A stretch of 64,000 nt of DNA, taken from Halovenus amylolytica (GTDB lineage: Archaea; Halobacteriota; Halobacteria; Halobacteriales; Haloarculaceae). Positions 14,759 to 15,299 of the stretch are shown in pieces; the stretch's first letter is position 1, and each line of letters begins with the position of its first letter. Where the stretch lies: contig SAYS01000004.1 of NCBI GenBank assembly GCA_004015825.1, forward strand, positions 62,001 to 126,000, written 5' to 3'. Position numbers and translations under genes: made by a program. A model generated the notes under the pieces. That model was not told where the DNA came from. It saw nothing but the letters and a program-made list of their open reading frames with translations, and ran no database searches.

Positions 14759-14830
14759 GTCCGGGCTGGGGTAATGGTATCCTTTGGGCTTGTGGTGCCC
14801 AAGACGCGGGTTCGATTCCCGCGCCTGGAC
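14759..14830 (+). tRNA. trnH: tRNA-His (GTG)
   Basis: A 72-nt cloverleaf. The encoded G-1 at 14759 faces C73 at 14830, the identity element of histidine tRNAs. The acceptor strands TCCGGGC and GCCTGGA pair over seven positions with one G-T wobble. The anticodon stem TGGGC/GCCCA closes the loop TTGTGGT, anticodon GTG. The T-arm is GCGGG/CCCGC around TTCGATT. No intron; CCA is not encoded. Its 3' end is repeated three more times downstream. Confidence 0.95.
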
Positions 14831-15299
14831 CTTCTGACGACGAGTGTATACGAGGAGTCGAAGGTCCACCGCAAGGGAAGCGAACCCTGGAAGTCGCAGC
14901 TCGCGCAGTGAGCAAAGCGAACGAGCAAGACCGTCTTCGAACGGTTCGATTCCCGCGCCTGGACTTTCTGGCGAGGAACGGACGTGACGAGCCGAAAGTC
15001 CAGCGTAAGCGGATCGAACCCCGAGAGTCACAGCCCGCGCAGGGAGTGAAACGATCGAGCAGGAATGTCTCTCTCCGGTTCGATTCCCGCGCCTGGACCT
15101 TCTTGCGAAGAACGAATGTGATGAGCAGAAGGTCCACCGCAAGGGGAGCGAACTCTGGAAGTCGCAGCTCGCGCAGTGAGCGAAGCGAACGAGCAATACC
15201 GTCTTCGAACGGCTCGATTCCCGCGCCTGGACTTTTTCCGAGGAGCAAAGCGACGAGCGGGAGCTCCACCGTGAGAGAGTGATGTCCCAGAGTCGTAGT
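14831..15299 (+). repeat. 134-bp tandem array of tRNA-His 3' tails
   Basis: The 22-bp tRNA 3' end (14809-14830; T-loop, T-stem 3' strand, acceptor 3' strand, C73) recurs at 14943-14964, 15077-15098 and 15211-15232, exactly 134 bp apart each time. Units 1 and 3 are nearly identical across most of their length; unit 2 is more diverged; a decayed fourth unit seems to run to about 15299. Each unit also has a 9-bp hairpin starting at the tRNA tail: 14826-14834 with 14860-14868, 14960-14968 with 14994-15002, and 15094-15102 with 15128-15136. The copies lack the 5' strand of the T-stem, so they are not functional tRNAs. Serial use of the tRNA end as an integration site, or a structured RNA array, would explain this. 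Confidence 0.85.

Follow-up and report, generated by a model that had tools for sequence, protein, structure and literature searches.

The 3' tail of a tRNA is repeated in tandem in the tyrT region of E. coli (rtT RNA), where the repeats follow the tRNA gene and each of them starts with the tail. These repeats belong to one enterobacterial operon, have a unit of 178 bp and are not known to contain an inverted tail or exchangeable hairpin modules. Exchangeable modules joined by folded imperfect palindromes make up the cassette arrays of integrons. Among haloarchaea, short, hairpin-rich and gene-free repeats, the SMRs and PATEs, are reported from Haloquadratum walsbyi (PMC3119063). The part of that paper dealing with these elements describes SMRs as having inverted terminal repeats, producing no target duplication and inserting into other elements, and PATEs as resembling IS605 ends.

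Here we analyzed an array of tRNA tails behind the tRNA-His(GTG) gene of Halovenus amylolytica (genome G000), within a window, the whole stretch of DNA studied, of 64,000 nucleotides. To the following reading we give a somewhat better than even chance: the array belongs to a family of tRNA-tail cassettes found in haloarchaea, that is, recombinogenic hairpin cassettes copied at T-arm homology and subject to birth and death.

The array behind tRNA-His

The array lies downstream of rpiA and upstream of a gene of the sugar-nucleotide dehydratase/epimerase kind, which scores under every curated cut-off and seems, from open reading frames judged by eye, to open a run of glycan genes. Each complete unit, or cassette, consists in this order of a hairpin A, an inverted T-arm I, a hairpin B and a tail copy D corresponding to about the last 22 nt of the preceding tRNA, and the tandem units, all in the same orientation, share one period. 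TRF returned a period of 134, 3.2 copies and a score of 552, the top of the six rows obtained for the window. The spacer between tail copies is 112 bp. The features are given below; modules were delimited on the sequence and, in the lines marked accordingly, on the predicted fold as well.

14760-14830, plus strand: tRNA-His(GTG) gene (3' end at 14831 according to ARAGORN); its tail D0 is the last 22 nt, GGTTCGATTCCCGCGCCTGGAC, 14809-14830
14831-14874, plus strand: unit 1, hairpin module A, outer stem TGGACCTTC (14826-14834) with GAAGGTCCA (14860-14868) (also fold)
14875-14886, plus strand: unit 1, inverted T-arm I, GGGAAGCGAACC, pairing with D0 (also fold)
14887-14942, plus strand: unit 1, hairpin module B (..GGAAGTCGCAG..ACCGTCTTC..)
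14943-14964, plus strand: tail copy D1, 22/22 identity to the tRNA-His 3' end
14965-15008, plus strand: unit 2, module A, with the compensatory T-A pair 14965:14997
15009-15020, plus strand: unit 2, inverted T-arm I, GCGGATCGAACC (also fold)
15021-15076, plus strand: unit 2, module B, in which 15026-15064 matches the strict family motif AGTCRCAG..CGAGCAGGA (G000:C3:77026-77064)
15077-15098, plus strand: tail copy D2, 22/22 identity
15099-15142, plus strand: unit 3, module A
15143-15154, plus strand: unit 3, inverted T-arm I, GGGGAGCGAACT (also fold)
15155-15210, plus strand: unit 3, module B
15211-15232, plus strand: tail copy D3, 21/22 identity
15233-15300, plus strand: decayed start of a fourth unit, a module A remnant (fold z = -0.55)

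The initial annotation had pointed to the regular recurrence of the tRNA-His tail and to a paired stem carrying a compensated change, and in the main it is borne out. The 22-bp tail recurs exactly at 14943 and 15077 and with one change at 15211, at spacings of 134, 134 and 134, and the pairs TGGACCTTC/GAAGGTCCA (units 1 and 3) and TGGACTTTC/GAAAGTCCA (unit 2) are present; that the stem is more than a copied accident also stands. Two details differ. The base pair changes do compensate, but the pair concerned (14831:14863, 14965:14997, 15099:15131) is located just outside the tRNA, in the trailer. Moreover, the pairing extends further than claimed, the T-arm part of the tails being also paired with inverted copies (14875-14886, 15009-15020 and 15143-15154). 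As a single covarying pair in three copies is weak alone, the between-locus tests described below, the covariation of the B stem and the tail swaps, bear the weight.

The RNA folds of units 1, 2 and 3 have z values of -3.8, -3.5 and -2.9, against -0.55 for the fourth-unit remnant; units 1 and 2 beat every one of 200 shuffles and unit 3 beats all except one. For the corresponding DNA folds the z values are -3.7, -2.4 and -2.4, with 0, 4 and 1 shuffles equally good. Both are almost equally clear, so that folding cannot separate RNA from DNA. Judged by eye, short G-N-A loops frequently close the hairpins of modules A and B in many loci, L381 among them, and their stems show G-A mismatches, as in the CGAACGNAGTGAG type; DNA hairpins of this form are very stable.

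In close relatives, which the initial annotation proposed to compare, the picture is mixed: among 15 tRNA-His loci from 14 genomes of the genus, tail copies are found in G000, G008 and G013 and probable remnants in G002 and G011, with none clear in the others. Arrays, remnants and unit-free tRNA-His sites inside one genus thus speak for rapid gain and loss.

Tail arrays at other haloarchaeal tRNA genes

Tail arrays follow between roughly one third and one half of the haloarchaeal tRNA genes sampled. A tail copy was defined as the tRNA's own last 20 nt with at most 4 of 20 positions changed, within 400 bp of the tRNA. By this definition, 61 of the 147 tRNA genes sampled in five haloarchaeal genomes have a copy of their own tail downstream and 4 upstream, whereas non-haloarchaeal genomes of the same phylum have 2 of 57 downstream and 2 upstream. 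The downstream and upstream counts are 18 and 0 for the 40 tRNA genes of G000, 11 and 0 for 31 in the L150 genome (Halorarius litoreus BND22), and 13 and 1 (n=29), 10 and 1 (n=29) and 9 and 2 (n=18) for G371, G324 and G156, which represent three other haloarchaeal families. Outside G000 the tRNAs were sampled by best score and are not complete sets. G371 was picked for its many B matches and L150 via the B scan, so both are possibly biased upward; G156 was drawn by sampling, not via B, and is without any match to the relaxed B pattern. The survey of four haloarchaeal genomes omitted tRNAs with less than 250 bp of downstream sequence and kept 23 tRNAs of a divergent cluster separate (2 tail copies downstream, 2 upstream); two of its 50 positive tRNAs are adjacent genes in tandem, and another is an intron-bearing tRNA-Ser called in L347, probably falsely.

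The first tail copy is mostly found about 75-240 bp downstream of the tRNA. Inverted T-arm 12-mers within 250 bp follow the same side: downstream and upstream counts are 23 and 6 in G000 (n=40), 16 and 7 in G371 (n=29), 14 and 6 in G324 (n=29) and 12 and 3 in G156 (n=18), as compared with 4 and 7 in non-haloarchaea (n=57). When the whole array was searched in 18 genomes of the genus, parts of it were recovered beside tRNA-Thr, Leu, Gly, Arg, Lys, Ser, Ala, Glu and Met. Of the 16 non-His tRNA loci examined, 14 have the local tail repeated downstream with no more than 5 edits, the exceptions being L023 and L042. On the Natronorubrum bangense plasmid NZ_CP031306.1, an array lies behind tRNA-Val(cac), with a tail copy of 20/21 and a spacing of 143. 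Separately, a region of the Halovenus genome outside the window (G000:C3:222418-231830) shows a dense cluster of 24 tRNA matches on one strand, many of them divergent, and is virus- or provirus-like; the 23 tRNAs counted separately above come from this cluster.

Across loci the architecture is D0 - hairpin A - inverted T-arm I - hairpin B - D1, sometimes iterated. In 48 arrays (the 50 positives minus the two tandem tRNA cases), the copied segment comprises roughly the final 22 nt of the tRNA and has a sharp edge. Counted from the 3' end, identity between the first copy and the tRNA is 0.88 at the 21st and 0.77 at the 22nd position, then 0.50, 0.40 and 0.27 at the 23rd to 25th; the inner 20 nt served for selection while these outer bases did not, and the ends follow ARAGORN and hold to within one position. 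In G000, 15 downstream tail copies have 0-1 changes and 15 have 4-6 changes, with none upstream. A series from fresh to decayed copies is thus present, and D and I decay in parallel, which fits birth and death of cassettes.

The inverted segment is matched to its own tRNA. Swapping tails on the spacer in the folding, we obtained -62.2 kcal/mol for local versus -54.5 for foreign tails placed before it (p=3.6e-14) and -59.1 versus -54.8 kcal/mol for tails placed after it, on the right side (p=4.7e-9). Foreign tails therefore cost folding energy when gaps are allowed. With ungapped matching, local tails beat foreign ones for the T-arm part of I in 14 of 48 arrays at the 5% level, and the acceptor part of I gave a local match in 2 of 48, equivalent to none. 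The local match thus comprises the T-arm part (ungapped) and a stem at the tail end (folding). In tRNA-Asp arrays, the tail copies differ from the tRNA by 0.03 substitutions per site and same-type A and B modules differ between genomes by 0.15 and 0.14; these figures are not strictly comparable, and the cleaner D may reflect constraint on D.

The core AGTCRCAG...GGAMYGTCT characterises one type of hairpin B. In its strict form it occurs in 54 of 146 genomes of the family and 16 of 22 genera, the reversed control giving 0 matches, and in its relaxed form in 301 of 392 genomes of the order and 78 of 95 genera, with single control matches in about 30 genomes. A scan of one genome per species recovered at least 118 stretches, and the 80 listed are, going by their titles, haloarchaeal. 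In 149 distinct copies, the successive pairs of the flanking stem are paired at 0.99, 0.98, 0.74 and 0.73 versus 0.66, 0.51, 0.59 and 0.48 when shuffled, and the R:Y pair of the stem at 0.97 versus 0.80, related copies not being independent. B is a dispersed imperfect palindrome with a covarying stem, as in REP-like repeats. Among the loci examined, 54 of 157 distinct strict-B copies have a tRNA gene on the same strand within 600 bp upstream, and every tRNA listed beside B has the same strand as B. Many arrays hold other hairpins in the B position. As B also occurs away from tRNAs, it is the tail-I-hairpin-tail architecture, not B, that marks the tRNA loci. Many of the tRNA-less B loci listed belong to Halorubrum and have B inside another dispersed element; in L089-L107, L153-L158 and other Halorubrum loci, B lies within a larger dispersed repeat, away from tRNAs, with GAGGCTGGGGAGG and GGGACTCAAAGGGGCAG as examples of its flanks. 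B is reversed between protein genes in L044, L049, L051 and L052, in L063 and L069, and in L066 and L076, the host genes being, as read by eye, those of rps28e, nuo and another operon. There the coding strand shows by eye a small open reading frame starting with MST.RHSCS..CAGCD and ending at the next start codon.

In one other genus, different tRNA genes draw on the same modules, and these reassort. The same A and B modules are located behind tRNA-Asp and tRNA-Ser(gga), each with its own tails. For this genus, 52 genomes were searched (all gave matches, but the tRNA gene alone suffices for that) and 30 loci retrieved, two of them without array; the 28 arrays contain 42 typed cassettes and one further untypeable one. 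Five A types and four B types occur in 15 combinations. The association of A with B is weak, with a mutual information of 0.37 bits versus 0.23 shuffled (maximum 1.83, p=0.05), so they are not perfectly independent. In that genus, modules reassort between arrays as integron-like cassettes would.

Origin and possible role of the arrays

The reading as birth-and-death cassettes builds on what was observed: the frequency of the arrays, the way D and I alternate, the sharp edge of the copied segment, the match of I to the tRNA, the shared modules, the reassortment of A and B and the fresh-to-decayed series. In the mechanism that we propose, a hairpin cassette would enter immediately downstream of a tRNA through recombinational or template-switch copying. 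Synthesis would return to the host tRNA through about 10 nt of T-arm homology (TTCAAATCC), common to many tRNAs of the host, and by returning there it would copy the local tail a second time. Later D-D and I-I exchanges would multiply, delete and reshuffle modules, unequal exchange would have made the 134-bp tandem behind tRNA-His, and fold-back synthesis at the hairpins could restore I to match the local tail. Such a route would need no dedicated integrase and would leave the tRNA intact. As near-identical strains yielded no instance of an insertion, we infer the copying mechanism. The arrays would mostly be selfish or neutral DNA under birth and death. The conservation of the B core across families is more than simple neutral DNA predicts, which counts against this reading and fits some function. 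The possible constraint on D, the want of a local match in the acceptor part of I under ungapped matching and the imperfect independence of A and B weigh against it as well. The arrays are probably transcribed with the tRNA, and I competes for the tRNA tail, hence a possible cost or use at the RNA level. Birth-and-death copying is our preferred reading, followed by an RNA role.

The copying scheme is helped by a non-tRNA case, noticed by eye at about position 1500 of L058 (minus strand), where the pattern X-X'-B-X lies at the 3' end of a presumed aspS. The two gene-end copies X differ, again by eye, at synonymous positions only, which suggests entry of a foreign gene end together with the hairpins through homologous exchange.

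Tentatively, the tail and hairpin cassettes may form an undescribed system that writes into each tRNA transcript a trailer directed against the cognate tRNA and able to unfold it, being either non-coding, selfish and tolerated through fast folding and processing, or a maturation timer; the next tail copy would be a possible decoy in it. Control of the tRNA at the RNA level seems to us rather unlikely. According to this proposal, the transcript would extend into the array and I would act as a cognate anti-tail with two alternative fates: through hairpin A it could invade the precursor's T-arm and acceptor strand, and through hairpin B the next tail copy could absorb it. Precursors escaping prompt cuts by RNase P and RNase Z would be trapped and lost, the trailer serving as a timer or quality control. 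The equilibrium folding is consistent with such a capacity. The probability of the acceptor stem falls from 0.98 for the tRNA alone to 0.13 with its own trailer, versus 0.49 with foreign trailers, and goes from 0.99 to 0.00 for tRNA-His of the window. With the own trailer it is below 0.1 for 38 of the 47 arrays left after removal of intron-bearing and poorly pairing tRNAs. Non-haloarchaeal trailers disrupt less than shuffled ones on average (0.79 versus 0.56). That the tRNAs listed beside B share its strand and that the B stem covaries also argue for a role in RNA. However, adding the own D1 gives no rescue in the model (0.08), while a foreign trailer followed by its own next tail spares the tRNA (0.78), and over half the tRNA genes sampled lack a tail copy. 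Sequestration drops with the decay of D1, from 28 of 33 for fresh copies to 6 of 10 and then 6 of 11 for decayed ones (a series that likewise lost some tRNAs to filtering), as expected of turnover. It occurs in 11 of 53 cases without tail copy (1 when shuffled) and in 3 of 47 in non-haloarchaea (3 when shuffled). We also considered that the next tail copy shields the tRNA from I, which the equilibrium folding speaks against; L009, L013 and L240 seem to end in I. The model is one of equilibrium, with co-transcriptional folding, processing and high salt lying outside it, and since precursors fold during synthesis and RNase P and RNase Z cleave them, these results show a capacity and not an activity. 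The array may also be, as the initial annotation alternatively proposed, one of structured RNAs processed out of the tRNA-His transcript.

The D copies might also be att cores left by repeated tRNA-directed integration followed by internal loss, which we judge improbable. The copied piece, from the T-loop to the 3' end, resembles the segments used by archaeal integrases in the part of PMC8371274 that describes them, the sharp segment of about 22 nt is of the att type, and the genome of the window has 18 PF00589 matches. None of these integrase matches falls between or near the copies: in line with the initial annotation, which saw no integrase nearby, there is no PF00589 match in the window, and the nearest on the contig, which starts about 77 kb upstream of the array, is about 116 kb downstream. 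Lying mostly about 75-240 bp downstream, the first copies leave no room for an integrase gene. An inverted T-arm in the middle of the insert is not what a simple att scar predicts, and the recurrence of the same modules at several tRNA genes, always with the local tail, also speaks against this reading. Successive integration and excision of one element at tRNA-His, which the initial annotation had put forward, was accordingly abandoned as the main reading, since many tRNAs and several families share one architecture, whose inserts are too short for a typical gene. Neither the plasmid nor the phage collection contained a match to the window array; the tRNA-Asp array of G371 had none in the phage collection and a single one among plasmids, the N. 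bangense tRNA-Val array, itself behind a tRNA, and an origin from plasmids or phages was rejected on this ground. In two other places of the genome, tRNA-Glu (G000:C8:143590) and tRNA-Arg (G000:C16:109415), an integrase match lies about 0.9 kb downstream, the second with stops, and there is no tail array; arrays and integrated elements might exclude each other, two cases being no proof of it.

A REP-like origin, with a single-strand hairpin element mobilised by a Y1 (HUH) transposase and the tail copies as by-products, has in its favour the dispersed imperfect palindrome B also found off tRNAs, the many short G-N-A loops seen by eye and the five Y1_Tnp matches of the genome, but is highly improbable as the cassettes carry tail copies and IS605-type elements give no target duplication in the account of PMC3119063.

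The arrays raise the testable question of how a tRNA precursor matures with a cognate competitor for its 3' half in the trailer. They also preserve natural traces of archaeal recombination at very short homologies.

Relation to known systems

A known RNA family was rejected on the basis of Rfam, in which only tRNA scored above the gathering threshold, both for the tRNA-His array (E<=10, RtT included) and for nine related loci (E<=1). A splicing-endonuclease BHB site in hairpin B was likewise rejected, the internal loops being by eye unlike the two 3-nt bulges and 4-bp helix described in the relevant part of PMC7714728. In the open-access literature, with subscription journals largely outside the search, we found no description of such haloarchaeal arrays, and we provisionally regard them as an apparently undescribed family.

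The nearest in kind is the tyrT repeat region of E. coli. The haloarchaeal units are also in tandem and each begins with a tRNA tail; they differ in having about 100-200 bp with alternating orientation and in occurring at many tRNA genes of several families. Like integrons, the arrays have exchangeable modules and folded palindromes, but the likeness is one of analogy only: in the genome of the window they have no integrase nearby, they are without cassette genes and their joints are tRNA T-arms. They are short, hairpin-rich and gene-free as SMRs and PATEs are; the tRNA tails, however, mark the arrays, and PMC3119063, in the part that treats SMRs and PATEs, does not tie these to tails. Finally, a duplicated tRNA 3' end is common to the arrays and to attL/attR pairs, whereas many kb and often an integrase separate att copies, as the relevant parts of PMC8371274 and PMC3119063 describe them, and about 100 bp of hairpins separate the copies of the arrays. 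Tail copies beside haloarchaeal tRNAs should not be taken automatically as evidence of integrated viruses.
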